Below are positions 81 through 24,653 of a stretch of 24,653 nucleotides of DNA, piece after piece (positions within the stretch are counted from its first letter, which is position 1; every line of letters starts with the position of its first letter). Made by a program: the position numbers and the translations under genes. The notes below the pieces were generated by a model. It had not been told where the DNA came from and made no database searches. It worked only from the letters and a program-made list of their open reading frames with translations. Source of the stretch: a virus. The stretch lies in the IMG/VR virus record IMGVR_UViG_3300032092_000239, positions 1-24,653 of that record. One strand, written 5' to 3'.

Positions 81-824
81 ATGAAAAATCCAACTAACCA
101 AATTAAGGACAGAGTGTTTGTCCTTACGAAAGAAAAAGCTCCGCTGAGCTACACCCTTCCATCAAGAAACACAAAACGTTTTTCTTTGCTCTACTTTGAC
201 GGGACCACAAACCGTGCGTTGCGTTACTCTAGAAACCAGAAGTCAGTATTTGAAGACGAACAGGACGACAAGGCAATCCTTGAGCCAATCGTATTTGAGG
301 ATGGAAACTTAATTGTTTCTGCAAGCAATCCAATTCTCGGAAAGTTTTTGGACATGCACCCATTAAATGGAGACGTGTTTAGAGAGTTAAACACAGAAAG
401 AGAAGCAGCTAAGGACATTGAGGAACTTAACATTGAGCTTGACGCACAAATTGCTGCTAGAAACTTGGAGTTAGAAACCATGCTGTCTATCGCTCATTTG
501 TTGTATGGCGGCGTTGTTGACACAATGACTACACCAGAGATTAAGAGAGACATCTTGATATACGCTAGAACATATCCAATTCAGTTCTTGGAGATGATCA
601 ACGATCCAGACTTGGCGGAAACTGCAATGGCCTCTAAAGCATTGTCTGCCGGTTTGTTTACAATGAGAAACAACAATCGTGAGATCTGGTTTAACATACC
701 TGGAAACAAGCGTAAGTTGATGAACGTTCAGCCAGGCGATGACCCAGTATCTGTATTAACTACGTTCTTTGAGTCAGAAGAGGGTAAGCCAATCGCAGAG
801 ATGGTACAGAATAAGTTGTCGTAA
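81..824 (+). CDS. Conserved phage protein, probably virion-associated (247 aa)
   Basis: Soluble 247-residue protein with no signal peptide or membrane segment. It opens with a basic, beta-rich stretch (residues about 10-50, including SLLYFDGT and LRYSRNQKSVFEDEQ). A segment about 'NPILGKFLDMHPLNG' (84-98) follows, then an acidic, coiled-coil-prone helix (105-135) and a helical C-terminal half. The pattern FDGTTNRALRYSRNQ plus a 'fLdmHPlnG' segment recalls conserved proteins next to capsid genes in Bacteroidota and T4-like marine phages, but I cannot name the family. The ATG at 81 lies 21 bases after a TAnnTTTG element and follows a terminator, so it begins its own transcript. A role in head assembly or structure is inferred only from its place ahead of the neck and tail genes. 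Confidence 0.7.
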   Translation: MKNPTNQIKDRVFVLTKEKAPLSYTLPSRNTKRFSLLYFDGTTNRALRYSRNQKSVFEDEQDDKAILEPIVFEDGNLIVSASNPILGKFLDMHPLNGDVFRELNTEREAAKDIEELNIELDAQIAARNLELETMLSIAHLLYGGVVDTMTTPEIKRDILIYARTYPIQFLEMINDPDLAETAMASKALSAGLFTMRNNNREIWFNIPGNKRKLMNVQPGDDPVSVLTTFFESEEGKPIAEMVQNKLS

Positions 825-5700: not shown

Positions 5701-8700
5701 CAGATTAAACGAGTTCAACCTATCTACCGCCAACTTCAAGTACGTTGACCGCTTCTTTGGAAGTATTCAAAAGCTATACGCTCGTGACACAAACTTGATC
5801 GTATTCCAAGAGGACAAGATATCTACCGTTCTTTACGGAAAGAACTTGCTAAGTGACTCTACCGGTGGTGGAGCTATCGCTAGCATACCAGAGGTCCTAG
5901 GAACGCAGATCTCCTTTGTTGGCGAGTATGGTATTAGTCTAAACCCAGAGAGCTTTGCCACTTGGGGTAATGACATGTTCTTTACAGATGCAAGGCGTGG
6001 CGTTGTATTGACTATATCTGGAAATGACCTAGGAGAGATTTCTATCCAAGGGATGAAGGACTGGTTTAGAGACTTGTTTATTTCAGGGACTAATAAGCAG
6101 AAGATCGGGGTTCTAGATCCGTACAGTCAAATGTACGTACTAACCTCAAACGATATTACGTCTAGCCCTTGCCAATTGTCTATATCACCGCTATCTATAA
6201 CAACAGATAATACGGCAAAAACTGTAAACATATTTGATATCCAGTCAAACTCAGGATGGGTTATCACTGGAATGCCGGTATGGATGACAGTATCTCCATC
6301 GAGTGGAACCGGTGATCAAGACGTTATGGCAGACATTGCTCTAAACAGCACACTGGTTACAAGAAGTGCAGTTCTTACAATTACAGCTTCGTGTGGAAAC
6401 GTAGTTACATTCACTGTAATTCAGACAGGAAAGCAACTTGTAAGAAGAGGAAGCGTAGTCATTGGCGGAAGCGGAGACAGTGGGACTGTTAGCACGCAGA
6501 AGTATAACTACAGCAGCTCTGGTACACTTGGATACGAGTTTACCGATACATCCTTTACTCCGGCTCCGGTTAGCTTGTTCAATACCTTTGGAGCTCCTGG
6601 CGGTACCGATGGCGTTCCAAACCCTGGAGACACGGTTACATTGTATGCGTACAACACCACTACTAGCCCGTCTGGGATCCCAGCAACCCCATTTCTACCG
6701 GGCCTTGGGAACAAAGCGTACTACTTGGTGTCTAATACACAGTACACAAATGCAGACTACTTGACAATGTTGTCTCTTGCAACTCCCGTAACAATGACAC
6801 TTGCTGGTTCTGAGTATAGCGGTACGTTCACGTATCTTACGCCATCCAATGAGCAGTACTTGTACTTGCTTTGGGACTACAGGAATATCATAGCGTGTGG
6901 AGCTACGGCATCTTACTCTGGAACGGCATTGACATCTGAGACTACAGTAACTACTGGATCTGCAAATGGAAACGTTACATTTAACTATGACGCCCAGTCT
7001 ACACCAGACCGTTTTGTTATTACATTGAATGGTGGCGTAGTTGCAGATAGTGGATACGTTGGACTCAATAGCTCGGCTAACTACAACGCGTTGATAGCGG
7101 CTGGAGTTGCTGCTAGCGACATCAAGTTAGTTTCTCCATATGATGGCCTTGTAAACAATAGTACAGGGACTTTGAAGTTTACAAAAACTCAAACTGGAAA
7201 TCCAATACTTACCGTTTACTCTCCACTATCATCAAATGGATGGAGTGTTGTTACTGCGTGTGCGAGTTTGAATACCGTAACAATCGACACCACAAATGGT
7301 ACGTTAGCAAATGTTTGTGCTCAGACGCCGGCCACTGTTAAGTATCATAACGGGCCTTCGGCTACTCCTACAGTTGGTGTTATCGTTTACAACGAGTCTA
7401 CGGGAGCAACTATTTACAACGGAGGAAATGCATATCACAAGTTTGGCACGTCTTACGCATTCATCACATCAGCTGGTGTTATCACAGAGGTTGGATCTTG
7501 TGTTTGCGCTGAGACGTTCTCTCCGATCGTTACGATGTCTGACATTGAAATAGCGGTGGCGGCTGGTGTATCTATAAAAATTGCAGCAACAAATAACCCG
7601 ACAAGCTATAACTTGATCACTACCTGTACTAGTTTTACATTCTATGGTGGTATTGATGGAGCTGTGTTCTACGGTGCAAACTGCGAGACAGGATACTACG
7701 AGACATTCCCTGTATCTGCATACGAGACAAGTTCAAGGTGCTTTACAGCTGGAACAGTAACCAAGTTGTCTGGGTCTGCTGACGCTACGCTAGAGGCCAG
7801 TGGGTCTTGTGGTGAAACATCTTTACCATTTGGTATTACTTTTGATAGTACAAATGGATTCTTGTCAGGAATTGCAGAGGGACAGGGGCAGTACAAGGCT
7901 ACCTTTAATGCTACAAACTGCTTTGGAACTGGACCAAATACTACTATTAACATCTCAGCTGTTCAGCTAGATGCTCCTGCAACTGCATTCCAAATCAACG
8001 TAGACGATCAGGCTAGTGCCGCTGCCGCATGTGCACTAGTTCCAGAGGTTTGGGTGACCCTTTACCACAACGGATACTACACGTACCCAATACTTGGTGA
8101 CACGGTTTATATTCAGTCTAGGGGCGGGAATACTTTTGACGGAAATAACTTATGGTATGCTATCAATAATAATCAGGCAATTCAGATCAGTGATGATGGG
8201 GTTGTCACTTCGGTATTCAACTGCGGCTCAACGCCTCCAACACCTCCGACACCTCCAGCCGGAAACTACTACACCGCTGTTCTATGTAATAGTACATACA
8301 GTGCCGTCCTTTACGATGCTGTAGCTCGTGTTGTTGCGTCTGGAACTAAGTTGAAGACCACTGACGGGAACTGCTGGACTGTAGGAGCTGCGGTAGCTGC
8401 AATAGCGACTAGCTTCAACATACCAACAACTATCGTTACATTCGCAAGCTGTGCAACGTGCACTGGCGTAGTGCCGGCCCTTACAGAGGTATTCTTGACC
8501 GATTCTGGTACCAAGACTGGTGTGTGTGCTTCTCCTAACTATTACTCTTACTGGACTAATGGAACGGTAGGGACTAGTGGAACCTTGTACATGAACTCAT
8601 CTGGAACTATCGTAGCACCTTCTGGGTACTACAAGAATCAGGCAGCTCCAACAAATGCACACTACTGGAACGGAACGGCTTGGACACTGACAGAAGCTTG

Positions 8701-8704
8701 CTAA
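2786..8704 (+). CDS. Giant tail nozzle/muzzle protein fused to BACON, Ig-like and adhesion modules (1972 aa)
   Basis: The N-terminal signature 'DERLVPNGQYRDALNV' (residues about 17-32) and a long beta-rich region to about 1120 resemble the nozzle/muzzle (T7 gp12-type) proteins of crAss-like phages. A BACON domain follows at about 1128-1216, with the typical strands ('GWVITGMPVWMTVSPSSG', then 'SAVLTITAS' and 'TFTVIQTG'). A Cys- and Thr-rich beta region continues, including a putative He_PIG/Ig-like unit at about 1679-1725 ('LPFGITFDSTNGFLSG', 'ATNCFGTG'). A Pro-rich hinge (PPTPPTPP, about 1815-1825) leads to a Cys-containing module and a C-terminal Tyr/Trp/Gly-rich module ending TEAC. BACON domains in Bacteroidota proteins are associated with carbohydrate or mucin binding, so the C-terminal half probably contacts the host surface. 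The start overlaps the stop of the upstream gene. The family assignment of the first half is good; the module boundaries are by eye. Confidence 0.8.
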   Translation: MQITRSLVSGIMNKDLDERLVPNGQYRDALNVTVGTSEDAGVGAVANELGNTQVSGLAAAATAFSGSAFSLAGAKTIGSIAVPAEFLIFWFVKAVTGNIIASYNSQTGLTSIIAMDTRAGSGNVLNFNSEYLITGVNYISGLLFWTDNLNPPRRVDTKAFYAYNNFTEESINVIVKPPLTAPTLALRDDSSVLSNNIKDKFLYFAYRYKYVNNEYSSFSPFSEVGFQPSEFTFDYGTGVNKSMQNRWNIIDISFSTAGSNIKEIQLLFKDSSSTNVNVIENLVLSDLVLGNVQGVTYNAGTQIAKFSGFANNKVYGVLPSNQLTRLFDNVPLKAKAQELISSRIIYGNYTQFYNIVSIAGKGIVPNYSVSIVSESKLSTGYVINSPVKTLHSDRGYEVGISYMDDYGRMSTVLTSSTNTASVSSANSDTSNYLKVNIISEAPAFATKYRIFVKQAKGQYYTIFPNIFYTEGIYTYFMINESDVDKVHANDYIVFKVNPNGITYSNAEFKVLDVVVKEKDFLNNKKNQISGVYMKVKTDGNTAFSAANLIVNKTSSRGVTSARKSKYAAGFTCASLGDPGVLPIFFPHSFTEDPVFYGTGANDLATVNKSDKVLVDRRIRIEIDGRNASGIDTFKVSVLSTDVAGASLIQNVAITGVNQVISDGTRALCTIRFAKTTGHTIGDSWRINQRATWTDSAGRTIFGGPLGFTGFDDPFGGIAVFPKDATSINGGAVITIKINETRVAGGEGQPEQTFISSRDYINIEEWFFEDSIYEQFTMTARNQNQGATTVFFRRCSNYRNIQSGSQSCTQVDQTDNGDIRMFIRGHADADSDDFKSGNSISCIRAILTVDCTITQAKNKTIIETQPKNTDIDIYHETETFAVTNGLHSGTNGQNQSRDTAGTIRKPAVVELKNVYNAYCFRNGVESDRIRDDFNGSYMQYSPRVSSTIENYEQERVPHGLTYSGVFRQDTGTNRLNEFNLSTANFKYVDRFFGSIQKLYARDTNLIVFQEDKISTVLYGKNLLSDSTGGGAIASIPEVLGTQISFVGEYGISLNPESFATWGNDMFFTDARRGVVLTISGNDLGEISIQGMKDWFRDLFISGTNKQKIGVLDPYSQMYVLTSNDITSSPCQLSISPLSITTDNTAKTVNIFDIQSNSGWVITGMPVWMTVSPSSGTGDQDVMADIALNSTLVTRSAVLTITASCGNVVTFTVIQTGKQLVRRGSVVIGGSGDSGTVSTQKYNYSSSGTLGYEFTDTSFTPAPVSLFNTFGAPGGTDGVPNPGDTVTLYAYNTTTSPSGIPATPFLPGLGNKAYYLVSNTQYTNADYLTMLSLATPVTMTLAGSEYSGTFTYLTPSNEQYLYLLWDYRNIIACGATASYSGTALTSETTVTTGSANGNVTFNYDAQSTPDRFVITLNGGVVADSGYVGLNSSANYNALIAAGVAASDIKLVSPYDGLVNNSTGTLKFTKTQTGNPILTVYSPLSSNGWSVVTACASLNTVTIDTTNGTLANVCAQTPATVKYHNGPSATPTVGVIVYNESTGATIYNGGNAYHKFGTSYAFITSAGVITEVGSCVCAETFSPIVTMSDIEIAVAAGVSIKIAATNNPTSYNLITTCTSFTFYGGIDGAVFYGANCETGYYETFPVSAYETSSRCFTAGTVTKLSGSADATLEASGSCGETSLPFGITFDSTNGFLSGIAEGQGQYKATFNATNCFGTGPNTTINISAVQLDAPATAFQINVDDQASAAAACALVPEVWVTLYHNGYYTYPILGDTVYIQSRGGNTFDGNNLWYAINNNQAIQISDDGVVTSVFNCGSTPPTPPTPPAGNYYTAVLCNSTYSAVLYDAVARVVASGTKLKTTDGNCWTVGAAVAAIATSFNIPTTIVTFASCATCTGVVPALTEVFLTDSGTKTGVCASPNYYSYWTNGTVGTSGTLYMNSSGTIVAPSGYYKNQAAPTNAHYWNGTAWTLTEAC
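6167..6434 (+). other. BACON domain segment within the nozzle fusion
   Basis: This stretch encodes about residues 1128-1216. It shows the BACON pattern: an opening 'LSISPLSI' strand, a central W..(G)xPxWM-V-P-sGtGd core and a closing 'VTFTVIQTG' strand. A single copy is visible. Two flanking Cys residues (in SSPCQ and ASCG) are also present. The domain marks the change from the nozzle-like half to the surface-binding half. Confidence 0.7.
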
Positions 8705-12014: not shown

Positions 12015-15000
12015 ATGACCGATTTAAAGCAATCATTAAGAGATTTTGTTGCAACAGCAAATAGTGGAAAGTACGCTGATGAGAATGTATTAATATCTAA
12101 ATTCCCAGAATTAAAGGGGTACGACATTGGAGTGTTAAAGGATTTTGTTGCTACCTCTAATAGTGGGAAGTATCAAACAGAGGACGAGTTGTTTTCCAAG
12201 TTCCCCGAGTTTGCAGTAAAAAAAAAAGAATTGGTTTCTCCTTCTCAACAAAAAGCTCAACCTACTTCGTTGGTTACTGGTGGGGCGATGGAAGGTGGGC
12301 CTTCGGTGCCTTCTGTAAATCCTCCAAGCAATAAGCTTCAAGAGGAATTATTCCAAAAGTCAAGGCTAGCCGCTAGTGCATTTGTCAATCCCATGAAGCC
12401 TGGGTATACCCCTGTCCCAGAGGCCGAGGCGAAGAAAGCTTTTTATGGTAAGGCTAATGTAGAAGCGGGAACTCTTAGGGGTATTCCTGGCGAAAGAAAG
12501 AGCACTATAAATAATCTTAATGATAAGTATAAAGACCTTGGAGTTCAATTTGAAGAAATACCTGGTAAGCTACAAAAAAGTTTTGGATTAGGAGACATTG
12601 TCGTAACGGCAGACGATGGTTCTACGCACATTGTTCAGTCTACAGGTGCTGATGAAAAATTAAAAGAAGAAGAGGCAAAGTTGCAGACGTTCTTGATGAG
12701 CAAGTCTGCTGGTGCAGAAAAGAAAGAGGTAACACCTATTGAGCTGTTAAGAATGTCTCAAGACGGAATCTCTGATATTGAGAAGAATAAATTCAAGAGG
12801 GTTTATACGCCAGAGATGATTAACGAAACTGTAAAGTTTGTTAATGATGAGGTTACTAAATCAAACAAGAAACTACAGGACATAAATAACCAGATCCAAC
12901 AAGTAAATAATGAGGCCGCAAGGTTAAATGGCATTATGGGGTCAGCCACTACAGAGGATCAAGCTAAGATAAAAGACCTAACAGATAGATATGATTTATT
13001 GATATCTGAATTTGATAGAGAAAAAAATAATGCGCAAGTAATATCTAGGCTAGGCAGCGAAGGCATTAATATGGCTGCAGGAGAACACGTAAAGTTATTA
13101 GAGCAACAAGGTAGTTTTGGGAAGTCTATATACAACCATACGATAAACGCGATTGGAGACGCCGTGAATGGAGTTTTCCAATTGGCTTCGCTTGGCGTGA
13201 TGGACAAGGGTGCTGCGTATGCACAAGACTTGACAAACCAATTTAAGGAGGAGTTTAAATACGCTGGGACAGAGGTGTATGAAGAAAATAGCAACATGGC
13301 TATGAAGGTTCTATTCTCTATGCCTGAGTGGCTTCCTATGGCCGCTATGGCGCCAGAGGTTGCTATGGCATATATGTTTAGCCAGGGAGTTGGGCGGAGA
13401 ATGGAGGAGGTTAACTCTAACGAAGAGACCAAGAGCTTATCTCAAGCAGAAAAGTTGGCTATGGTAGCACCTATGGCATACATAGAGGCCCAGTTAGAGA
13501 AACTTGGATTTGGGGCGTGGTTTAATAAAAACAAGGGTCTTGCATCCTCTATAGTTTTAAAAGCGGTATCAAATGTATCTCCCAAAGCGGGGGCTGCTGG
13601 TATTACTAAATTGATAAATACAGAAATAAACAATCTTGCAGTAAAGGGCCTTTTGAACGTAAGTGGGGCAATGTTGGCAGAGGCAGAGACAGAAAGCCTA
13701 CAATACGTCACAGAAAATGCAATGAGAGAGCTATATAACGTAGCAGAGGGCAGGCAAATATTTAAACAACCACAATTTGGGTCAGAGGCATGGGCAAAAG
13801 AACTTTCAGATAATGCAATTATGGGTGCTATGGGTGCCTCATTTGTGTCTGGTCCTATTAATATTGCACAACAAACTGCAAACTATGTAGTAGGCAAGTC
13901 AAATACAAACCAAACATTTGGCATTGTAAAGGACTTGTTGAATGATAACGTTGCAGAGAGCTCAATGATCACCCAATTAAACGCTGCTGTAAATGACGGT
14001 AAACTTTCAAAAGAAAAAGCACAAAATACTTTATACAACTTCAGAGAGGCCAAGGCGATCGCTAGGGACTTACCAGAGGGATTGAGCGAGGACAATCAAA
14101 GAGCCGCTTTTGACTTACTTGCAGAGAAGAGAAAATTGACAAAACAGATTGAGGGAAAAGATCCTTCATTGGTAAACAAACAAAAGAAGCGTATAACAGA
14201 AATTGAAAACCAACTAATAGACATATCAAATGCCGTTCAAGAGCAAACAACAAGTGAAGTACCTGTACAGCCAGAAGCCAGAGTTGGCGAAGAAGTGGTC
14301 GAAGGAAAACCCCAACCAGAACCTGAAGTCGTTACCGAAGAAGGTGCAGCCAAAAAAGAAGAAGTAAAGTCTGACATAGAGAAAAGGAGGCAAGAAGAGT
14401 TAGACAGTGTTGATGTATCTAAAGGAGGCAAGATTCCTCTTGAAGGATATGAAGAGTTCTACAACAAAGTCAACGAAAAATACGATGCAGAACTAGCTTC
14501 GTTAGAGCAACAAAAGACAAGCCCTAAAGATGACGAAGTAGCACAGCAATACATTGCCGATCTACAAGAGACCAAGCAATCTGATCCAGAACAGTACTGG
14601 TCTGTTGACTCTGTAACAGAAGAAGCGGCTAAAGAAGGTACCGTAATCACAGATGAAGATGGTGGCGTTGTGGTTTCTAAGGATGGTGACATTAAAGGTC
14701 TATTTAAGAAGGCTGCATCAAAGGCTAAGGGAGTTGCTCAGAAGTTGCTTCAGAAAGCCGTTGAGGCTGGTGGTATTAAGTTAGACAATTTCGATAACTA
14801 TCTTACTCCAGTTTACGAGAAGGCTGGTTTTAGGGTTGTATCTAGACTCCCATTCAACGAGGAGTACGCTCCGGAGGGATGGAACAAAGAAAAGCACGGA
14901 ACACCGGATGTCGTAGCAATGGTATACGATCCACAGAACAAGCTTGATATTCAAGAACAGAAGTTCGAAGACTACGATGAGGCTATGGCATATCGCGATC

Positions 15001-18000
15001 AACTCGTGGAGCAATCAAAGTCTGAGTATCCAATGCAAAGTAACTTCGATCAGGCTGTTAACAAGTCTGCTCAGGCACTTAACGTAGTGGCGCCGGATTT
15101 GAAGGTAATCGTTGGAGACAATATTGACGATGTACAGAACCGTATCGTAGAGGCTATCGCACCATTGATTGGAGAGAGACAGGCCGTACAGACAGCTGAA
15201 GAATTTGCTACTGGAACCAAGGGACAAACGATCTTTGTTGACGGCAAGCCTTTCGCTGTAGTATTCGATAAGACTACCGCAGATAGCCGTACCGCAGGAC
15301 ACGAGGCATGGGAAGTTATGCTGAACGATGCGTTCGGTAACGACCAAGCTAAGTTTAAGGAGTTTACAGCGGGCATTGACTCTCAACTAAGGGCTCAAGG
15401 TTTTGCTGATATCGCTGATGCTTTGGACGCATTCGCCAGCCAGAAGGGCTACGAAGCCGTAAAATACTCGGAGTACATGGCTGAGCTTGGTGGTATGTTG
15501 GTAGAGGCTGGTTTCGGAAAGGGCCCACTAACGGCTCAACAAAAGACATTACTACAGAAGATCGGTGACATCATCAATAAGTTTGCTGAGCTATTCACCG
15601 GCAAAAAGCAGTTCTTGGATCAGGCGACCCCAGAGGATATCCTTGGTTTCATGGTTACCATCTCTGAGAAGGTTGCTAAGGGTGAGGACGTGTCAAGATT
15701 CTTTAGAAAAGGAGAGAAGGCAAAGGCCACCGAAGGTGTGACATCTAAGAGTCAAATGCAGGCGATAGAAATTCTTGATGGTCCAAAGTTTGACAATAAG
15801 TTAAAAGAAGATGTGGCGTCTTATTTGAATGGTTTAAGAGATTCGGAGATCCCGCCAAATTCAAGTAGAGAGCTGTTGATGGAGCGTTTTATTAATAACG
15901 TTTACGAAGAAGTTGGATACTACCTTTATAGTAAGCCAGACGCAAGAAGTGCAGGGCTTACTTGGTACATAGAGGACATGGTTGAGTTTGAAAATAAGAT
16001 AAAAGTTGTTTTACCAGAGCTTTCAAATGAAAACCAATACAAGCTATTCCTTACAGTGTTGGCATTTACATCTTCTGGAACCAACCCTAACCAAAACTTG
16101 CTATACGCATACAATCTTTGGAACAACTCCAAGGATCCTAAAAACTTTGAATTCTCAAAGACGTGGGGCGAAAGCAAACTTTCTTTTATTGACAAAAAGG
16201 GCAAGTCTATAGCTAGTGGTATTATTGTAAAAGAAACAGCAAAAGAGTACACAGTTGAACTAATAGACTCATTGGGTCGCCCAGTAGTAGACAAGAAGGG
16301 AAACAAGAAGTACGAAAAAATATCAAAAAACTCAATGAAAGAAGGGTATCCAAAGTCAACTGGATATACCAACAGAGGCGAGATAATTATAGGACAGCTT
16401 GAGAAATTAGAAAAAATCTACAAAGATTTAGGATCTATAGATAAGGTTGTTAAATGGCTAGAAAGCCCACATCCAATATCCGAGTTAAGGAAGTACAACC
16501 AATCCGTCCCAGACGTTAATGGAAAGGGCCCCGGAGAAACAAATAAGGAATATGACCCCAAGAAGAATGCAGAGGGCGAAAGAAATGGTGCGTTTATATT
16601 CGGTGAAAAAATAGGATCTTTTTACCAAAACATGATTGGAATCGGAGAAACAATCACAATGGACTTGTGGTGGTCTCGTACGTGGAACCGATACATGGGC
16701 ACCATGATTAATACAGTCTCTGGAAAAAAGGAAATACAAGAGGTACCAAGAAGCGATCGCGAAAGAAATATTATGCGAGAAGCTGTGAAATTAGTTGCTG
16801 AAGACTTAAATTTGCAAGTAAGCGAACTACAAGCTGCCATATGGTATTTTGAACAGGAGCTTTGGACTAAATCTGGAAACAAGTCTCCTAGCTATAGCTA
16901 TGTTACAGCAATAGACGACTTAACTAAAAAACTAAAAGTAGATGAAGAAACAAGAACAAAATTACGAGCAGCTGAAGCAGATCTCACAGAAGCTGAAAAA
17001 AGAAGGCAGAATGCCGCAGAAAGAGCAGCTGCTGTTGTCGCTAGCAAAGGCGGCGAAATCCCTGGCTCTAAAGTAACGTCACGCTCACAGAAGTCTGTTC
17101 CAACGGTGGTAGACGAGGTGTTGACCGATGACGGAAAGGGTAACTACTTGTTTGTTCACTACTCAAGGGCCAAGCGTGACACCATTAAGCCAATGTCTGG
17201 CTCTAAAGAAAACTTCACAAGCCGCGAAGAGGTAGCAGCCATATCGTCTGTTGGTGGTGTTGCAATGTACTACACAAAGGCCGGCCAGAAAGAACAGGGC
17301 GTTGGCAACGTTCCACACACCGTGTTGGTTCCTAAAGACAAGGTTTACTTCTACGGAACTACCGAAAGGGGTAAGGTGTCTAACGATCCAGAGAACTTCT
17401 ATCCAGAAGCTCGACGCCGGTTCCAAGAGTACAAGAACATGAACAACCCAACAAGGCCAACCGAGTATGCGTTTGACTCAAACAATGCGGCTGCATGGAT
17501 AACTAAAGTCGCCGCAGAGAACGGATACGACATGGTTGTTACCAACTGGGGAGGACCAAAGAGCTACAGAGCTCAGACGGTAAAAGAGTTGACCCCAGAA
17601 GCCGAGTACACCGGATTCAAAGAAATCCCAGACGCTGTGTTTGAAGTTGGAGACGAGATATTTGTAAATGGTTCATACGGAAACGTAACGTCGGTAAGTG
17701 GAAGCGTTGTAAAGTACGAGGGAACTAATCGTTACGGTAATGCAGAAAGCGGCGGATTTGACTTGAACAGGCCAAATAATGCCATCATGATTGAGAAGGC
17801 TAAGCCATCTGTTACAACTCGCTCTCAAAAGGTTGAGGTAAAGACCATTCCTGGATACGACAGAATGCTTGATCAGGTTGAGGGTATCATGGACAAGACC
17901 ATGAATAGCCGCAATGGTTCATACAATAAAGCCACCGCTAATTCGATTGACTATATTCAGAAGTCATTAGTATACATAAATGCAGATGATTCTCAGCGTG

Positions 18001-21000
18001 AGCAGATCATACGTGACTTCAAGAAGATCAGAGGCGAGAAGTTTAAAGTAGCTCCGTCTGTGGCTAAAATCATGGGCCAGATAAAGGACGTGAAGCAGGT
18101 TACCGTAAAAGAGAGCACAGCGCTGAAGGATCAGATCAAGTTGGAGGCCAAGGCAGCCAAGGACTCTGCAGCCTTTGTAAAGCAGCTCCGCATGGACATC
18201 TCTAACCAACTAAAGTCTATGGTTGGCCGTGGTATGATGTCTGCTAGACAGGCAACTGCTATTATCTCTCGCTACGACAAGATGAACATCTTGAACCCTG
18301 TAATGCGTGACCGCTTTGTTGACTACATGTCTAGGGTATTCCAAAGCGCCGAGTATACGGACAAGATCAAGGAAGCGTCAAAGCTTCGCAAGACCATCAG
18401 AAAGGCTGCAAAGAATCCCAACAACCAAGCCGACAACTCAAAGCTTGCAAAGGCTTTTGCAGAGATCGATCCATCGCGTGTAGAAAACATCGACGACTAC
18501 CTAAATAATGCTGAGCAGATCCTTAAGTCTGTGTCTCGAACAACCGGTGACGTTAAGATGCGTTCATTGGTTAACATGACTGACATGGTTTCTTATATCG
18601 ACAAAGAGATACAAGAGCAGAGAAAGCAGATCAAGAATGAAATCTTGAGCAAGTACCAAGACTTGGTAGATGCTGGTGTGTTGGACAGCAAGATGACCAT
18701 CAACGAAATACAAAAAGTTGTTGATTCAATAAAAGAAACTGAAGACGAGTCTGAGGCTAAGGCCCAAGAAGCAAAAGCTGCTGTCAAGCAGATGATGGAA
18801 GAACTGTCTCCTATCTTGATTAAGATTGCAAGAACAGGCGAAGATCCATTTACTGGCGATCCTATCGACCTAACTTCCGATGAAAAGAGAGACCTAGTTA
18901 AATTGGCCAACATGGACATAGACAGCCTTTCACTTGCCGATTCGTTAAAAGCCGTTGAGTATGCAAACAACTTTATTTCAAATGGGATTTTCTCTGGTAT
19001 TGGAGCGATTGTAAGTATCAATGAAGGCTCGCTTGAGCCGGCCAAACTAAAGAAAGAGGGCGTAATGTCACTTAGGCTTAGGAAGTATTTTTCTCCAGGT
19101 GCCGGCAGGAAATGGGCCGAGCAACTTGGTACATTAACATTACTCAATAAATTATTGTTTCTTAGCAACGAAAAAGCAATAATGGTCGCCAACGCTTCAG
19201 GCGAGTCGGGCATTGCTAATGGAAAGGCAAAGGCTATCAAGATCGTTGAGAAGGCGGTCAAAGAATATACAGACAAGTTCTCTAGTTTAAAAGATTTCAG
19301 AACCGGAGAGAATATTATCGAAAGAGGTATTCTTGCATTTGTGTCAAGAACCGTGATCGGAGATAAATTCCAGGCGCAAGACGAATTTAATAGGCGCAAA
19401 ACCCTGATTGAGGAGACAATCCAGGCGCTAAAGGACCCAAATAACAGCACGGATGCCGACATCAAGAAAGGTGAGTTGATTGAAAAAGTCTACGACAAGA
19501 CTCTAAAGAACGCCAAAAACGTTAAAGAAGTGCGTGCAAATACTAGCGAGGTTAACAAGAAGGCTGTCGACTGGTGGGTAAATGAATGGTCTAAGCACTA
19601 CGAACGCATGGACGAGGTCTCTAGAAGCGTGTACAACACATTGCTTACCAGAGACGCGAACTTTACTCCTGACCGTTTCCAGTCAATAGACCTAACCACT
19701 GCAAGCGAAAACGACTTTGATTCTAGCTTCTTCGGTAGTTTTGAAAATGTAAGTACAGATAAGTCTGGTTCTTTGAAAGAGAACAGGCGTATCAAGAACT
19801 TGCCAAGCGACAAGAACGGAGCTAAGACCAGAATTGTAAACCTAGACTTCGACATGAACAATGCAAATGCTTTGACAAATGCATTGATTGACGTTGAGAC
19901 GGCCAGCTCTGTGTTGAAAGCGAAAGGATTTGTTACCTCTAAGGACTTTGGTAAAATATTCTCTAGCAAAGACGATGCGAAGCTGTACAAGAGAAGACTT
20001 ATCTCTTATGTAAATAACGTTAGAGGTAAAAACTATGTAGACCAGAGCGAGCTAACAAACATGGGCAAATCTCTTAATGCTATAGGATCTTTCGGTACCG
20101 CGAAGGCATTATTCAGTTTGTCACAACCTATAAAACAGTCTATTCCTCCATTGTTCAACACACTTGTACAGACAGGAAGACTTGATCTTGGAACACTATT
20201 CTCTGGTGGTAGCGCTTTTATCGACAGAACCGGTTATCCAATTATTAACCGTGGTATTAGTTCTTTGGCAGAATTGCAGGCAATCAACAAAAAAGTCGCC
20301 GAGGCCGAGAAAAACTTGTTGGCAAAAGGGATTATGGGTATCGCGGAGTACAATAACAAGATGCTCGAGATCTGGCTTCAAAAACCAGACGTGTTTACTG
20401 CACGTTCATCTTGGTTGTCGTTCTACATCAACAGCCTTAAAAAGCAAGGTATCAACACAAAGGGGTTAGACTGGAATACTCACGAAGTAAACAAGAAAGC
20501 GGCCGACTATGCGGAGCTTATGGTTTCGTCTCAACAGAACGTAAACGACTCTGACATGCAAGGTATGTTGTTCACCAACAAGACGCCATATGCAAAAGCG
20601 GTAAGAAAAGCATTGTTTACATTGATGACCTTCACGTTGAACCAAAAAACAAGGATCTGGTCAGACATGAGAACGCTGTCTAACAAAAAATTGACAAGCG
20701 AATCAGACAGAAAAGAAGCATTGTTATCTCTTGCTGGTGCCATTGTCGAACTTGTTTCTTTTCACTCAATAAGTCTTGGTGTGTCTTACATTGTTCTTCA
20801 GCCGTTAATAGACGCCATGATGGAAGCTCTTGGCTATGAGGACGACGACGAGGACAAAGAGCTCGAGAATAAAAAGCTTTTAATGAACAAGTCAGCATCT
20901 ATCGCTCAATCATTCTTAAAAGACTTTATCTTGCCTCCAATCCCTGGGATTGACGCTTTGGCTAGCTCAAAAGTAAATAGCATAATGGAAGAGTACGGTA

Positions 21001-21365
21001 TATCTGAAAAGATTGCAGCAGAAGGCTTCGGGATGGAAGAAGGAGAAAGCAAGTTTGAGCTATATGACAAACAAGACTATTCATTCCTTGACGTATTGGG
21101 TGGCGCCGGTATTGCCGCTGAAAAGGGCAAGGAGCTATTTGATTTTACTTCTCTCGCATCTACAGGAAAGTTCGACCTTGAAACTAAAGGTGGTTTAATT
21201 ACAAAGCAAATTCAAGAAGAAAACGAAGACTTGGCTAAAATAAATGCCTCAATAATGTCTGCGTATTATCTTGGGATATTGCCTGGAGAACTTGCCTATA
21301 TCGCAAGAAAGCTAGACAAAAAGATCAAGAAAGGCGCTGAGAGAGTTGAAGAAGACGAGGACTAG
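12015..21365 (+). CDS. Large polyvalent protein, giant internal virion/ejection protein (3116 aa)
   Basis: Visible order: two 33-residue repeats with core 'DFVATxNSGKY' (4-66); a coiled coil (about 275-340); hydrophobic segments (about 429-460 and 550-620); a GNAT-like unit at about 880-975 ('GLFKKAASKAKGVAQKLLQK' to 'GTPDVVAM'); and a zincin-like unit with H1096-E1097-xx-E1100 and E1157 ('YMAELGGML'). A phage-specific domain follows at about 1245-1685 ('GAFIFGEKIGSFYQN', 'TMDLWWSRTWNR'), then an ART-like unit at about 1710-1860 ('LFVHYSRAKRDTIKP', 'AMYYTKAG'). The tail is long, Lys/Glu-rich and helical, with a hydrophobic stretch at about 2900-2940. This matches large polyvalent proteins that phages package and eject. 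T7 gp16 occupies the same place in its operon. Domain identities other than the general class are candidates. The stop overlaps the opposing gene's stop at CTAG. Confidence 0.78.
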   Translation: MTDLKQSLRDFVATANSGKYADENVLISKFPELKGYDIGVLKDFVATSNSGKYQTEDELFSKFPEFAVKKKELVSPSQQKAQPTSLVTGGAMEGGPSVPSVNPPSNKLQEELFQKSRLAASAFVNPMKPGYTPVPEAEAKKAFYGKANVEAGTLRGIPGERKSTINNLNDKYKDLGVQFEEIPGKLQKSFGLGDIVVTADDGSTHIVQSTGADEKLKEEEAKLQTFLMSKSAGAEKKEVTPIELLRMSQDGISDIEKNKFKRVYTPEMINETVKFVNDEVTKSNKKLQDINNQIQQVNNEAARLNGIMGSATTEDQAKIKDLTDRYDLLISEFDREKNNAQVISRLGSEGINMAAGEHVKLLEQQGSFGKSIYNHTINAIGDAVNGVFQLASLGVMDKGAAYAQDLTNQFKEEFKYAGTEVYEENSNMAMKVLFSMPEWLPMAAMAPEVAMAYMFSQGVGRRMEEVNSNEETKSLSQAEKLAMVAPMAYIEAQLEKLGFGAWFNKNKGLASSIVLKAVSNVSPKAGAAGITKLINTEINNLAVKGLLNVSGAMLAEAETESLQYVTENAMRELYNVAEGRQIFKQPQFGSEAWAKELSDNAIMGAMGASFVSGPINIAQQTANYVVGKSNTNQTFGIVKDLLNDNVAESSMITQLNAAVNDGKLSKEKAQNTLYNFREAKAIARDLPEGLSEDNQRAAFDLLAEKRKLTKQIEGKDPSLVNKQKKRITEIENQLIDISNAVQEQTTSEVPVQPEARVGEEVVEGKPQPEPEVVTEEGAAKKEEVKSDIEKRRQEELDSVDVSKGGKIPLEGYEEFYNKVNEKYDAELASLEQQKTSPKDDEVAQQYIADLQETKQSDPEQYWSVDSVTEEAAKEGTVITDEDGGVVVSKDGDIKGLFKKAASKAKGVAQKLLQKAVEAGGIKLDNFDNYLTPVYEKAGFRVVSRLPFNEEYAPEGWNKEKHGTPDVVAMVYDPQNKLDIQEQKFEDYDEAMAYRDQLVEQSKSEYPMQSNFDQAVNKSAQALNVVAPDLKVIVGDNIDDVQNRIVEAIAPLIGERQAVQTAEEFATGTKGQTIFVDGKPFAVVFDKTTADSRTAGHEAWEVMLNDAFGNDQAKFKEFTAGIDSQLRAQGFADIADALDAFASQKGYEAVKYSEYMAELGGMLVEAGFGKGPLTAQQKTLLQKIGDIINKFAELFTGKKQFLDQATPEDILGFMVTISEKVAKGEDVSRFFRKGEKAKATEGVTSKSQMQAIEILDGPKFDNKLKEDVASYLNGLRDSEIPPNSSRELLMERFINNVYEEVGYYLYSKPDARSAGLTWYIEDMVEFENKIKVVLPELSNENQYKLFLTVLAFTSSGTNPNQNLLYAYNLWNNSKDPKNFEFSKTWGESKLSFIDKKGKSIASGIIVKETAKEYTVELIDSLGRPVVDKKGNKKYEKISKNSMKEGYPKSTGYTNRGEIIIGQLEKLEKIYKDLGSIDKVVKWLESPHPISELRKYNQSVPDVNGKGPGETNKEYDPKKNAEGERNGAFIFGEKIGSFYQNMIGIGETITMDLWWSRTWNRYMGTMINTVSGKKEIQEVPRSDRERNIMREAVKLVAEDLNLQVSELQAAIWYFEQELWTKSGNKSPSYSYVTAIDDLTKKLKVDEETRTKLRAAEADLTEAEKRRQNAAERAAAVVASKGGEIPGSKVTSRSQKSVPTVVDEVLTDDGKGNYLFVHYSRAKRDTIKPMSGSKENFTSREEVAAISSVGGVAMYYTKAGQKEQGVGNVPHTVLVPKDKVYFYGTTERGKVSNDPENFYPEARRRFQEYKNMNNPTRPTEYAFDSNNAAAWITKVAAENGYDMVVTNWGGPKSYRAQTVKELTPEAEYTGFKEIPDAVFEVGDEIFVNGSYGNVTSVSGSVVKYEGTNRYGNAESGGFDLNRPNNAIMIEKAKPSVTTRSQKVEVKTIPGYDRMLDQVEGIMDKTMNSRNGSYNKATANSIDYIQKSLVYINADDSQREQIIRDFKKIRGEKFKVAPSVAKIMGQIKDVKQVTVKESTALKDQIKLEAKAAKDSAAFVKQLRMDISNQLKSMVGRGMMSARQATAIISRYDKMNILNPVMRDRFVDYMSRVFQSAEYTDKIKEASKLRKTIRKAAKNPNNQADNSKLAKAFAEIDPSRVENIDDYLNNAEQILKSVSRTTGDVKMRSLVNMTDMVSYIDKEIQEQRKQIKNEILSKYQDLVDAGVLDSKMTINEIQKVVDSIKETEDESEAKAQEAKAAVKQMMEELSPILIKIARTGEDPFTGDPIDLTSDEKRDLVKLANMDIDSLSLADSLKAVEYANNFISNGIFSGIGAIVSINEGSLEPAKLKKEGVMSLRLRKYFSPGAGRKWAEQLGTLTLLNKLLFLSNEKAIMVANASGESGIANGKAKAIKIVEKAVKEYTDKFSSLKDFRTGENIIERGILAFVSRTVIGDKFQAQDEFNRRKTLIEETIQALKDPNNSTDADIKKGELIEKVYDKTLKNAKNVKEVRANTSEVNKKAVDWWVNEWSKHYERMDEVSRSVYNTLLTRDANFTPDRFQSIDLTTASENDFDSSFFGSFENVSTDKSGSLKENRRIKNLPSDKNGAKTRIVNLDFDMNNANALTNALIDVETASSVLKAKGFVTSKDFGKIFSSKDDAKLYKRRLISYVNNVRGKNYVDQSELTNMGKSLNAIGSFGTAKALFSLSQPIKQSIPPLFNTLVQTGRLDLGTLFSGGSAFIDRTGYPIINRGISSLAELQAINKKVAEAEKNLLAKGIMGIAEYNNKMLEIWLQKPDVFTARSSWLSFYINSLKKQGINTKGLDWNTHEVNKKAADYAELMVSSQQNVNDSDMQGMLFTNKTPYAKAVRKALFTLMTFTLNQKTRIWSDMRTLSNKKLTSESDRKEALLSLAGAIVELVSFHSISLGVSYIVLQPLIDAMMEALGYEDDDEDKELENKKLLMNKSASIAQSFLKDFILPPIPGIDALASSKVNSIMEEYGISEKIAAEGFGMEEGESKFELYDKQDYSFLDVLGGAGIAAEKGKELFDFTSLASTGKFDLETKGGLITKQIQEENEDLAKINASIMSAYYLGILPGELAYIARKLDKKIKKGAERVEEDED
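12036..12212 (+). repeat. Two tandem 99-base repeats encoding 33-residue units
   Basis: The start of the giant gene encodes two copies of a unit with core 'L(R/K)DFVAT(A/S)NSGKY', then an acidic stretch and 'SKFPE(L/F)'. Residues 8-33 and 41-66 align with no gap at a period of 33. At DNA level the copies differ at many third positions, so the duplication is old or selected at protein level. The unit may be a small helical or cell-wall/virion-docking motif; its function is unknown to me. Confidence 0.85.
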
Positions 21366-22474
21366 AACAAGTGAGTGATTCTAGCGACCTGCCCGTGCTC
21401 GGGGTGGTGGAGGAAGCCTTCCACCGCCTTGGGTGATCCGGTGTAACCATTTCTATGGTGCCAGCTATCTGTTCCAGACGGTGATCGAAGACTCTCCACA
21501 GTGACACCGATGTAGTCCTTAGACGTCTTGTGGTGTACGTGGTGTGTATACACATAGCGATGCTTGGTCTGTGACCATGACAGCGGTGACTCTTGAGCCA
21601 TAAGCAATGGCAAGTCCTGTGCCTTGGCACCATCTCCATGTGTAGATCCAATCATATTGGTCCCGTACGTGTAATACTTTCTGTGTGCTATAGAGCAGTC
21701 GAAGGTAATGTTTTCGCACTTTGAGAACCATGACTGAATCGTGTCGGCCAAAAAGAATCCATTTGTGTAGTCGTGGTTAGACGGGTTGAAGCAGAAGTGC
21801 ACGTCTGCAACCGTTACCAGCATCTCAAGTATCTCAATGTAAAGCTGCTTGGCAATCAAGAAGTTATCGTACCACATTCCATCGGTGTCCTGAAAAGTAC
21901 CAGACGTAGTGGTCCTCCTTGGAGTGTCGATGTGCAGGATATCGTTTCCAGCAATAAATAAGATCTTATCAATATTGAATCCAGCGGTCTTGTCTAGGAT
22001 TCCCTTGACTCCCTCTCTGACTCTTTGAACAGCAATTTGGTTATTGTAGTCCTCGCCTGTCTCAAAAGAGCTAGCGAGCTTTCCAATGTGAATGTCTGCA
22101 GGATCGATCACCAGTAGGTGCCCGTCCTTGCTTTGACTTCTATGGATGTGTTGGTACAAGGGTGCATAAGACTTCATCTGATCGATGATATCGTCTCTGA
22201 TCTCCTCGTAAGATGGGGCAGCGTCTCCCTTTACGTTCATAGAGAAGTTCTTTCCCTTGTGCCAGTAATACTTTACCTTGTCAACGGGAACTCCTATTAC
22301 GTTGCACTCTTCAACCAAGGCTCTGTGCTTGGTGATTTGTCTGCATACCTCTTTTCTCACTGTCTCTTCAGACATTGGCAGATTGTACTTGTCCTTTAGG
22401 GACTTAGCAATCTGGGTCTTATTGAGTTTGCCTTCGGCAAAAAGCTCAACAGCCTCTTGTTTATATGATTTCAT
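21362..22474 (-). CDS. SbcD/Mre11-type calcineurin-like metallophosphoesterase with N-terminal HTH (370 aa)
   Basis: The five metal-binding motifs of calcineurin-like phosphoesterases are in order: D127-I-H129, N177-D178 (AGNDILH), N233-H234-D235 (PSNHDY), H279 (STHGDGAK) and H312-x-H314 (THHVHHK). Residues 17-45 look like a helix-turn-helix ('NKTQIAKSLKDKY', 'SEETVRKEVCR'), a DNA-binding start not found in SbcD itself. Phage proteins of this kind are probably nucleases or phosphatases in DNA processing, with two Mn or Fe ions. The ATG at 22474 lies 14 bases inside the end of the upstream 61-aa gene, so the pair is cotranscribed. Its stop shares CTAG with the stop of the giant + strand gene, and no terminator is visible between them. 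The exact substrate cannot be told from sequence. Confidence 0.85.
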   Translation of the reverse strand: MKSYKQEAVELFAEGKLNKTQIAKSLKDKYNLPMSEETVRKEVCRQITKHRALVEECNVIGVPVDKVKYYWHKGKNFSMNVKGDAAPSYEEIRDDIIDQMKSYAPLYQHIHRSQSKDGHLLVIDPADIHIGKLASSFETGEDYNNQIAVQRVREGVKGILDKTAGFNIDKILFIAGNDILHIDTPRRTTTSGTFQDTDGMWYDNFLIAKQLYIEILEMLVTVADVHFCFNPSNHDYTNGFFLADTIQSWFSKCENITFDCSIAHRKYYTYGTNMIGSTHGDGAKAQDLPLLMAQESPLSWSQTKHRYVYTHHVHHKTSKDYIGVTVESLRSPSGTDSWHHRNGYTGSPKAVEGFLHHPEHGQVARITHLF

Positions 22475-22646
22475 TTGTGTGGGTCGCTTGAATATCCTTT
22501 AACAAAGGTATCATAGCCTCAACGATCTTCTTCACTTCCTTGTTCTCCTGGTCCATCATGGCCTCGTAGAGGTCTGTAGACAGGCTGTTCAACTCATCCA
22601 TAACCGAGTTGACGTAGTTAGATATGTTTTTGTGTTCTGGTTTCAT
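22461..22646 (-). CDS. Small helical acidic protein (61 aa)
   Basis: A 61-residue, all-helical, acidic protein with two likely helices ('ISNYVNSVMDELNSLSTDLYEAMM' region, about residues 8-31, and 'KEVKKIVEAMIPLLKDIQ', about 36-53). It has no Cys and no membrane segment. The ATG at 22646 is used; a longer version would need a TTG at 22679. It overlaps the metallophosphoesterase by 14 bases, so the two are translationally coupled and may act together. A TAnnTTTG element on the - strand (22720-22713) lies 66 bases before this start. It is short, but overlap, codon-like composition and promoter support it. Function unknown. Confidence 0.6.
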   Translation of the reverse strand: MKPEHKNISNYVNSVMDELNSLSTDLYEAMMDQENKEVKKIVEAMIPLLKDIQATHTNEII

Positions 22647-22712
22647 GGTATTTAAAACAATGGGGCCGGAAAATTCCAAACCCCAATGTTACCCAACGAG
22701 ATATGAACAAGG

Positions 22713-22789: not shown

Positions 22790-22832
22790 TTGTGAGTAAT
22801 TCTGCCGCATTATAGTTCGGCGTAAAATTGTT

Positions 22833-22840
22833 TATTTTTG
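22833..22840 (+). promoter_or_regulatory. TAnnTTTG promoter element before the PRTase-like gene
   Basis: TATTTTTG at 22833-22840 matches the -7 consensus and stands five bases before the ATG at 22846. No TTG lies 17-23 bases before it. It is in the same position relative to the start codon as the elements at 832, 1180, 8710 and 9475. Confidence 0.45.
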
Positions 22841-22845
22841 TAACA

Positions 22846-23325
22846 ATGTATATAGACCACATAAAAGAATACCAGATGATTCAAAGTTTGATTCGTCAGG
22901 TGCCAGCAGTAGACCCAATTACCACTGTTGTATTAAATGTGTCTCCGGACTACTCTAGTAGTATCTCGATGCACATGGCTCATCATTTGTCTGTAGGGGG
23001 AAAGATGCTCGACATGTTCCCTGTTGACGTTCCTTTTCCAAAAGAAAGCAAGGAATCGTATGAGAATTTATTTAGAAAGTCTTCAGCATTTTTCCCGGGG
23101 GTGTACGACAAAGTGATCTTGTGCGAGGCCGCTGTATTGTCTGGGAATAATTACATTTGGATAAAGCAAGTTCTATTAGACTTGGGATATAAGAATGACC
23201 AAATCATCACCACCTCATTGATAGAGATGACCACTAGTGTTTTTAATTGCGACTATGTAGCAGAGTATTCGACAAAGATGCCGGAGTTCTATTACGAGCG
23301 GTACAATAAACACTGGGACGCTTAA
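22846..23325 (+). CDS. Putative phosphoribosyltransferase-fold phage protein (159 aa)
   Basis: A 159-residue cytoplasmic protein. Its centre 'FPGVYDKVILCEAAVLSGNN' (about residues 84-103) fits the strand plus loop where phosphoribosyltransferases carry their PRPP-binding 'vvlvDDvxxTG' motif, but the acidic pair is reduced to E and the TG is SG. The following helix 'YIWIKQVLLDLGY' and strand 'QIITTSLIEMTTSVF', then the C-terminal 'MPEFYYERYNKHWD', are features I recall from a widespread uncharacterised phage family with this fold. The ATG at 22846 is chosen because it follows a TAnnTTTG box by five bases; an in-frame TTG at 22828 would place the box inside the gene. It sits between DNA-processing and nucleotide-reduction genes, which would suit nucleotide metabolism. 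Catalytic ability is doubtful. Confidence 0.6.
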   Translation: MYIDHIKEYQMIQSLIRQVPAVDPITTVVLNVSPDYSSSISMHMAHHLSVGGKMLDMFPVDVPFPKESKESYENLFRKSSAFFPGVYDKVILCEAAVLSGNNYIWIKQVLLDLGYKNDQIITTSLIEMTTSVFNCDYVAEYSTKMPEFYYERYNKHWDA

Positions 23326-23336
23326 AAGCAAATATA

Positions 23337-23473
23337 TGCACAAAGTAGCGAAAAGCAATACCTTGTGCAAAATCCTTATTTGCTATTTTTGGCACATTTA
23401 ACCATTATATTGTGCAATTTGTGCTATTTTTGGCACATTTAACCATTATAATGTGCAATTATTGTACAATAAT
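23337..23473. repeat. Iteron-like cluster: two 39-base direct repeats, TTGTGCAA motifs and a 16-base palindrome
   Basis: Copies at 23381-23419 and 23422-23460 (TGCTATTTTTGGCACATTTA... to TGTGCAATT) differ at one base and repeat with a 41-base period. TTGTGCAA appears at 23363-23370 and 23410-23417, with ATGTGCAA at 23451-23458. The reverse motif TGCACAA lies at 23337-23343, giving a 7-bp inverted repeat with 23363-23369. Each long copy also contains GCACA...TGTGC. A perfect palindrome ATTATTGT/ACAATAAT occupies 23458-23473. The region is A/T-rich and non-coding, between convergent genes. It could be a replication origin, a protein-binding array or an RNA-processing site. Confidence 0.8.
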
Positions 23474-23519
23474 GTCCTTTAAGACACCCAAAACTATGTC
23501 AAAATGAGCTTTATATGAC

Positions 23520-23581
23520 CGGTTATTCCGCCATTACTTGGTTTGTTGTCAAATAATGGCGGGTTATACGGATAATAACCG
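23520..23581. repeat. Long imperfect stem between convergent genes
   Basis: CGGTTATT (23520-23527) pairs with AATAACCG (23574-23581). Directly inside, CCGCCATTA (23528-23536) pairs with TAATGGCGG (23554-23562). The only interruption is an 11-base bulge on the right arm, giving 17 bp in two blocks. TTG/CAA (23538-23540 with 23550-23552) adds three more pairs after one mismatch. No T run follows on either strand, so it is not a standard intrinsic terminator, though it could stop or process both converging transcripts. Confidence 0.65.
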
Positions 23582-23587
23582 ATTAAT

Positions 23588-23615
23588 GTCCAGTTAATTT
23601 ACATAAAAACTGGAC
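23588..23615 (-). repeat. Hairpin at the end of the ribonucleotide reductase gene
   Basis: GTCCAGTT (23588-23595) and AACTGGAC (23608-23615) form a perfect 8-bp stem with a 12-base A/T loop. It touches the last base of the reductase stop codon. On the - strand it is followed by ATTAATCGG with no T run, so it may be a 3' end stabiliser or a weak terminator acting with the stem at 23520-23581. Confidence 0.5.
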
Positions 23616-24653
23616 TATGAAACTTCGCAACCGGTTCCTCCAGCGCAAGCAGCTTGGTCCATTAGGCTCGTCTTGTCGCTAATCTCTACAATTTTTGCGA
23701 CATCCAAAGCGTTAAGATTTGTAACGAGTTGATCGTACTTCTCCTTTGTAATGGTCTCGAACGGAGTCTGAACGTACGTTCCAAGGTCCTTTGGCAAGAA
23801 AGATAGTCCGTTGAAGAACTGCTTGTTCTCCCACAACCACTCTCCAACTGCCGGCCACTCTGACTGACCCATGCTCACCGTAGCGCTCACGTTGTGTGTG
23901 TTATCTCCACGCACGTGTCCCGGTGTGATCCAGTACTCGTGGAAGTACTTTACACGCTCCAAGAACTGAATAGCGTTCTCGTCATTTCTAGTGATGGCGC
24001 CAACCGGTGCAGACTGCGGAACAGACACGACAGCTTGATGATGTGGCTTGAACACGTCGTCCTCCAACATCTCAGGATGGTAGATCGACAGGTACGTGTA
24101 CATCGCCTCATTCTTTCCAATACGCATCCTGCGGACGTAATACTCGTCGTGCCATGCGTGGATACCAGACGAAGTCCCCAAGACCAAGGAAGAGGTCCCA
24201 GATGGCTTCACGCATGTTATACGAGCTGCCGGATTGATTCCGATCATCTCAGACACAGACACGTTTGCGTATATCGCTTGGTTAACGGCCAGCTGAAGGT
24301 TCATCTTCATCACCGGACCGCTAGCGATCCCGGTCATCCCGATTCCCAACAATGCCTCGCGCTCTGTGGTTTCTTTCCAGATCGGACGCAGGTAATGGAA
24401 GTCAGTGTAAGATGCCTGCATGGTTCCAATAACAGAGGCCCAGTACACGCGATCGTTCAAGTCGTCTTGGTCCTTGATGTCAGAGGCATTTACCTCTACC
24501 AAGTTACAGAACTGAAATGGGTTCAACGCAATCTCGGCGCATGGGTTGGTGCCCATGGTCTCGTTGTCGCTGAAGTAAAATCCGGGCTCTCCAGAATTGC
24601 TCAGCTCAATTTTTTTCCATAGACCAAGGAACTTCTCCTTAGATACACTATCA
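23615..24653 (-). CDS. nrdJ: Adenosylcobalamin-dependent (class II) ribonucleotide reductase, C-terminal part
   Basis: The frame stays open to the window edge, so the N-terminal part is outside; about 346 residues are present. Visible signatures are GEPGFYF; N-P-C-A-E, whose N, C and E are the active-site triad; and FCNL, whose Cys lies 11 residues after the active-site Cys. That spacing is as in the monomeric class II enzyme of Lactobacillus leichmannii and not the longer spacing of class I. KPSGTSSLVLGTSSGIH, the conserved phosphate-binding loop, follows. The C-terminus has ACAGGTGCEVS, a Cys pair for re-reduction by thioredoxin or glutaredoxin, here spaced C-x5-C. The enzyme makes deoxynucleotides with a B12 radical, so the host must supply cobalamin. 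A 242-aa antisense open frame is a shadow. Confidence 0.88.
   Translation of the reverse strand, partial: DSVSKEKFLGLWKKIELSNSGEPGFYFSDNETMGTNPCAEIALNPFQFCNLVEVNASDIKDQDDLNDRVYWASVIGTMQASYTDFHYLRPIWKETTEREALLGIGMTGIASGPVMKMNLQLAVNQAIYANVSVSEMIGINPAARITCVKPSGTSSLVLGTSSGIHAWHDEYYVRRMRIGKNEAMYTYLSIYHPEMLEDDVFKPHHQAVVSVPQSAPVGAITRNDENAIQFLERVKYFHEYWITPGHVRGDNTHNVSATVSMGQSEWPAVGEWLWENKQFFNGLSFLPKDLGTYVQTPFETITKEKYDQLVTNLNALDVAKIVEISDKTSLMDQAACAGGTGCEVS

Follow-up and report, generated by a model that had tools for sequence, protein, structure and literature searches.

A two-dyad intergenic element shared by uncultured podovirus-like phages as a candidate paired operator

We examined an intergenic repeat array in a 24,653-base IMG/VR virus record with podovirus-like genes, the whole of which is referred to here as the window. 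The terminase of a relative (G005) gave 93 matches in INPHARED, 68 Flavobacterium and 15 Cellulophaga phages among them, and because these phages make up most of the matches a Bacteroidetes host is probable. The array occupies part of the gap at 23326-23614, between a 165-aa gene on the plus strand and the C-terminal part of a ribonucleotide reductase (RNR) gene on the minus strand. A preliminary description had placed it among genes of DNA and nucleotide metabolism, which is true of the RNR; the other neighbour has no known function. The window also holds two very large ORFs, one of 1972 aa (2786-8704) that matches a virion structural PHROG and one of 3116 aa (12015-21365) that matches only families of unknown function. 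The genes and features around the array are the following:

21362-22474, minus strand: 370-aa exonuclease-like gene
22461-22679, minus strand: 72-aa gene, which in lineage A lies downstream of the array
22828-23325, plus strand: 165-aa gene (PHROG 29004, function unknown), with a promoter-like site TATTTTTG at 22833
23329-23336, minus strand: inferred promoter-like -7 element TATATTTG, with TTG at 23356-23358 and a 19-nt spacer
23381-23419: 39-nt direct repeat, copy 1
23398-23417, minus strand: dyad site 2, TTGCACAATATAATGGTTAA, centre 41 bp from that of site 1
23422-23460: 39-nt direct repeat, copy 2, start spacing 41
23439-23458, minus strand: dyad site 1, TTGCACATTATAATGGTTAA, near-invariant core
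23458-23473: 16-nt palindrome ATTATTGTACAATAAT, outer arms mostly kept among relatives and centre not, missing in some
23474-23520, minus strand: outer conserved block of the element, GGTCATATAAAGCTCATTTTGACATAGTTTTGGGTGTCTTAAAGGAC
23519-23571, minus strand: inverted repeat after the RNR stop, stem CCGCCATTA..TAATGGCGG, TTGACA kept in the loop
23589-23614, minus strand: hairpin TCCAGTTTTTATGTAAATTAACTGGA directly after the RNR stop, also present in relatives
23615-24652, minus strand: C-terminal part of the RNR, the contig ending inside the gene

The two near-identical 39-base repeats first noticed in the gap agree at 38 of 39 positions and exceed chance expectation, the longest one-mismatch repeat across 200 dinucleotide shuffles of the gap being 15 nt. 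The gap is also A/T-rich as described, with 32% GC against 43% for the window. The motif said to recur in both orientations does so as a shorter core, GCACA/TGTGC, which the gap holds seven times (the mean of shuffles is 0.94, and none of 1000 reaches seven); the exact TTGTGCAA occurs there twice, both times on the plus strand, and once elsewhere in the window, at 13864. The perfect 16-base palindrome is present but weak when taken alone, one of at least 16 bases arising in 25 of 1000 shuffles. Beyond the dyads, the 39-nt identity is specific to the window: in the relatives L004 and L007 the second copy diverges after its first 19-20 nt.

The gap, described as a convergent one with little need for promoters, does hold promoter-like sites, TATATTTG on the minus strand (23336-23329) and TATTTTTG on the plus strand inside each repeat, at 23384 and 23425; a scanner of the E. 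coli type run over the gap found neither promoter nor terminator. TAnnTTTG is given in PMC9723704 as the -7 box of flavobacterial sigma-A promoters. TATATTTG resembles this Bacteroidetes promoter in sequence, with a TTG 19 nt upstream, and lies past the minus-strand end of the array; the promoter neighbours the array rather than forming part of it, and is missing at C-type places. TATATTTG is kept in L004, L005 and L007 and takes the form TATCTTTG in L008, L009 and L047. The inverted repeat at 23519-23571, whose stem letters change together among relatives as judged by eye, is a possible RNR terminator.

Convergence of the flanking genes is a feature of the window and not of its relatives. In the nearest of these by RNR (L004, 97% nt; L007, 95% nt), what follows the same TATATTTG is a small-RNA hairpin and a tRNA-like sequence, then the 72-aa gene and that of the exonuclease. 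All of these share the direction of the RNR, and the minus-strand promoter-like motif leads first into a small RNA and then into the nuclease operon. The window has this stretch replaced, at ~22820-23327 (breakpoints ~22820 and ~23327), by the oppositely directed 165-aa gene, and the convergent arrangement is therefore local. We found one other relative of the 165-aa gene, at L185 2492-2977, beside the same small RNA on a B/C-group contig; occurring twice in the same kind of non-coding hub in two phage groups, it is perhaps a cargo gene.

Relatives were gathered by tblastn with the RNR, which yielded 64 viral loci, and by an 18-base core pattern, which yielded 30 IMG/VR stretches. A profile built from ten elements (that of the window and nine from the 30 stretches) recognised the element, of ~120-200 bp, in 24 of the 30, and the other six (L106, L109, L115, L121, L124 and L125) look like chance or unrelated matches. 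Two phage groups have the element, at three kinds of place, and the profiled contigs that carry it do so at a single locus. In group A, the type of the window, it follows the RNR. In group B/C, where terminase and portal share the PHROGs of their group A counterparts but are distant from them, it lies either between the RNR (a DnaA_C gene in L130) and a 136-aa gene, or beside the small RNA, adjoining a 95-aa gene. From the sequence we read these two B/C genes as a 'lipoprotein' (136 aa) and a 'GroES' (95 aa); neither has a PHROG or Pfam match. G021, of 69,485 bases and probably complete because its RNR is split over its two ends, carries one copy of the element; a second copy per genome was sought and none was found.

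Presence of the element is uneven even among close relatives. It accompanies the 136-aa gene at 13 of 50 loci, a count that leaves out L017 and L042, and four of the 37 loci without it have at most 302 nt upstream. L190-L192, which are close to the C-type contigs (in the 136-aa gene they share 89-92% identity with the C-type contig G015), are without the element after the RNR. The two 67-kb records G026 and G027 gave no profile hit; their only core matches have three mismatches and numbered one in G026 (two in the reversed control) and two in G027 (none in the control), and 17 against 13 over all 17 records. The 68-kb G008 keeps nothing of the element except a promoter-side remnant, and the closest INPHARED genome (MW202828) is without it. 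The element of L111 gave four short matches only against the known phages of INPHARED, the literature search found no description of the element, and no exact core match occurs in genome_contigs (contigs of at least 3 kb), on which ground an attachment site or prophage was set aside. Between the window and nine B-type loci the element is 78-87% identical and the RNR 61-71% (nt), whereas between the window and L005, of its own lineage, the RNR is 92% identical and the element 69%, a figure that depends on the alignment as the L005 element is rearranged. Since element and RNR divergence are out of step, the element appears to move independently of the RNR.

What the relatives have in common is a 20-bp imperfect dyad, TTGCACAwTwTAwTGGTTAA, in two or three copies. 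In 15 aligned elements site 1 reads TGCACATTwTAATGGTTAA, invariant except at one A/T position. A scan with a matrix of the symmetric half-site, derived from five versions of site 1 and with a threshold set after the sequences had been seen, detected two or three dyads in 23 of 26 regions and none in L010, L011 and L012. The distance between neighbouring dyad centres was 41 bp in 23 of 26 cases, many of them from closely related records and hence not independent, and 40, 72 and 114 bp once each. Linker sequence differs among relatives, and the dyads are partly inverted in L005, L008, L009 and L047. Common descent accounts for part of the regular spacing, and the change of linkers at fixed length argues for constraint. 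Outside the element, ten whole loci held a single dyad, or 0.008 per kb. The dyads, when sought in relatives, were thus found conserved there and not scattered over unrelated places, and the original suggestion of a protein-binding array is well supported by the 20-bp dyads, their rigid 41-bp register, their retention in relatives, their rarity elsewhere and the want of a supported RNA structure.

An RNA element was rejected. RNAalifold returned -3.5 kcal/mol for the element, with a covariation term of 0.02 and a double change in one of 11 predicted pairs, and since this is not a supported structure the array is taken as a DNA site; the A loci and the window also gave no Rfam hit that reached the gathering score. 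At site 2 the central columns vary independently by eye, and we do not claim symmetric covariation of the dyad halves.

We read the array as a paired-operator control site for a dimeric DNA-binding protein, and give this reading a probability of roughly 45%. The two imperfect dyads, with half-sites TTGCACA and TTAACCA, would be recognised in double-stranded DNA, and the 41-bp spacing of their centres, close to four helical turns, would set two dimers on roughly the same face, where they could cooperate; dimer binding, cooperativity and transcription as the target are what we infer. Placed behind a likely terminator, the array would serve as an accessory control module, and in positions after the RNR or, in lineage B, ahead of the 136-aa gene, the bound protein would most likely tune the promoter whose Bacteroidetes-type motif lies 10-106 bp downstream. 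We regard it as an accessory modulator because relatives keep the promoter motif without the array (L190-L192, L011 and L012; in L010 the motif is absent at that place). Favouring an operator are the 41-bp register kept while linkers differ, the near-invariant site 1, the single locus, the want of a supported RNA structure, the divergence out of step with the RNR and the nearby promoter motif: all 20 A- and B-type elements have TAnnTTTG on the strand of the last site, 10-106 nt past it. Against it stand the C-type elements with no following motif (TAnnTTTG was not found after the array in any of the three distinct ones), the persistence of the motif without the array, and the variable distance between the two (10, 26, 36, 45, 63, 72-74 and 106), which has no helical phasing.

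The OR and OL operators of phage lambda are cooperative, with a centre spacing of about 23-24. The array resembles them in its several dyads of ~17-20 bp, held in fixed register near a promoter, with half-sites that are similar and not identical, and differs in the 41-bp spacing, in the window's lack of an adjacent repressor gene, in the variable distance to the promoter and in its absence from close relatives. It also counts against an operator that no regulator tracking the element was found among the phage genes searched, DnaA_C and serine recombinase also occurring where the element is missing. A regulator of the Cro/CI type was rejected, HTH_3 exceeding the cut-off in one of 18 records (G010), within a GIY-YIG-like fusion whose GIY-YIG match falls just under the cut-off; a further HTH_3 match, in G014, is below it. 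A gene for a GIY-YIG-like and HTH_3 fusion lies between the RNR and the array in L013 (3825-4376, minus strand).

The array could instead be a replication origin, its dyads acting as iteron- or DnaA-box-like sites for a phage initiator beside an AT-rich stretch and a promoter, a reading that we consider possible but unlikely; the initiator would perhaps be the small DnaA domain-IV-like protein of these phages. The single locus per contig fits an origin, as do the helicase, primase and RNR genes that neighbour the element in lineage A and the repeat-rich stretch of ~1.3 kb, free of long genes, beside the C-type element. Stand-alone DnaA_C matches occur in 11 of 24 records, in all groups (eight over the cut-off, the C-type ones below it), and in L130 the DnaA_C gene is directly upstream of the element, but DnaA_C also matches in 7 of 13 records that all lack a core with fewer than three mismatches. 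Elements of lineage A are among the 0.1-1.1% lowest-GC windows, the corresponding ranks outside this lineage being 31% in G021 and 11% in G020. One-mismatch DnaA boxes cluster most strongly at the element in G001, G002, G004 and G005, with three or four within 250 nt; the exact box TTATNCACA is nowhere in the element. The likeness to iteron origins and DnaA-box clusters thus consists in short repeats in AT-rich DNA, one-mismatch boxes and a stand-alone DnaA_C, and it ends at the dyads themselves, whose free inversion is unlike plasmid iterons, at the want of exact boxes and at the skew. DnaA boxes were accordingly rejected as the explanation, there being no exact box and DnaA_C not tracking the element.

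The GC-skew check suggested by the preliminary description gave a divided answer. Skew flips at most 300 nt from the element, with a maximum there, in four C-type contigs (two with identical values) and reaches its maximum within 60 nt of it in G004 and G005; in five others of lineage A the change lies 0.9-1.3 kb from the element. Throughout lineage A gene orientation, which switches ~1.5-2 kb away, is a confounding factor. All seven B-type contigs, however, keep the sign of skew across the element, and in G021 the element lies at no extremum, a local maximum being found near 46 kb, at the C-type place, which there is without the element (two minus-strand ORFs at that place may explain it). 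The element is moreover absent from the two 67-kb records, from G008, from L010-L012 and from the closest INPHARED genome, the IMG/VR records among these being possibly incomplete. With skew inconsistent between contig types, presence patchy and orientation free, the proposed role in replication is not supported. Were it nevertheless correct, the array would be a mapped replicator in this phage group, where we know of none and the literature search gave none either.

Small DnaA domain-IV-like proteins (PF08299, ~110-160 aa) are encoded at G009 17061-17252, G008 689-889, G001 808-1002, G021 55517-55723 and G024 7521-7709, and the signature GGRDHSTVIHG is seen in three loci. The ~1.3-kb region without long genes, at L149 11900-13300 (G020) and also in G015, contains the repeats TTTAGAATCATTCTAAA, TTGAAAATCAATAAGTTA and TGTGCGTGTGTATGCGAGCG and is 81% alike in the two; it is perhaps a better origin candidate than the array.

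We think it doubtful, though conceivable, that the array is a plug-in control site, that is, a freely oriented, single-locus two-dyad module that keeps a rigid 41-bp register, is moved by recombination among two phage groups and three kinds of place, and subordinates its neighbour (late operon, small-RNA/tRNA cluster or origin region) to a shared regulator or initiator. It is also unlikely that the array is an intergenic module of little intrinsic function which spreads by horizontal exchange because these non-coding hubs are places of recombination between the phages. Divergence of element and RNR that disagrees in both directions would fit such passive exchange, as would the reordering of array, promoter region, small RNA, GCCAGT hairpin and 165-aa gene between places and between the two groups, and the patchy presence with the 136-aa gene, at 13 of its 50 loci; a spacing that stays at 41 bp as the linkers change requires constraint, however, and neither the near-invariance of site 1 nor the restriction to one locus per contig, as opposed to many copies, suits a mere passenger.

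A site for partition, packaging or site-specific recombination, after the manner of F sopC or a resolvase site, is improbable. According to PMC9178275, the sopC centromere of the F plasmid comprises twelve 43-bp repeats, each with a 16-bp inverted repeat, and the array resembles it in unit length and in having one inverted repeat per unit; the array has two or three units only, and no ParB_N match was obtained in the 18 records searched, so a ParB centromere was rejected. The lineage B element does lie upstream of genes leading to terminase, but in lineage A terminase is distant (at 35-37.5 kb in G005, with the element at 8.3 kb), and the packaging role first proposed finds no support. Lineage B/C encodes a serine recombinase, and five B/C carriers of the element have it; a serine-resolvase site was rejected as the recombinase is absent from all ten lineage-A records (G000-G009) and present in six records without the element. 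Overall the serine recombinase occurs in 11 of 30 records, in group B/C and not in the group A records; that of G021 (54811-55503, Resolvase and Recombinase domains) lies beside the DnaA_C gene.

Regulation in uncultured Bacteroidetes phages is little known, and a conserved cis element of strict geometry offers a handle for fishing out the protein that binds it. It also suggests that phage groups exchange non-coding control modules, and do so independently of genes.

Beside the array, relatives carry a phage small RNA, a hairpin with a near-invariant 22-nt loop, CUGCAUACCGUnAGAUCUGCUC, that contains a self-complementary AGAUCU. The CUGCAUACCGUnAGAUCUGCUC hairpin is present in 30 IMG/VR stretches, including contigs of 111 and 114 kb, and absent from the window; many copies have a TAnnTTTG motif upstream and often a U-run. 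Examples are:

L004, ~6395-6480: small RNA
L104, 9753-9806: small RNA
L120, ~620-680, minus strand: small RNA

In 14 chosen examples (12 of the 30, plus L005 and L011), with the stem drawn by eye, the stem covaries: both sides are changed in 12 cells, where shuffles average 2.9, and the score of 0.447 is reached by none of 500 shuffles, further pair types being less striking (24 of 500 shuffles). No Rfam family matches the small RNA at gathering score, three weak matches lying off the hairpin, and no bacterial contig in genome_contigs has the exact motif. ARAGORN reported no tRNA in L004, L007, L011 and L012. By eye, tRNA-like sequences (for example AGCCAAGTGGCG..GGTTCGAGTCCTTGCTTGGCTAC) can be made out in L004 (~6475-6580), L007, L011 (~6330-6440), L012 (two) and L026, with unusually long D or variable parts.
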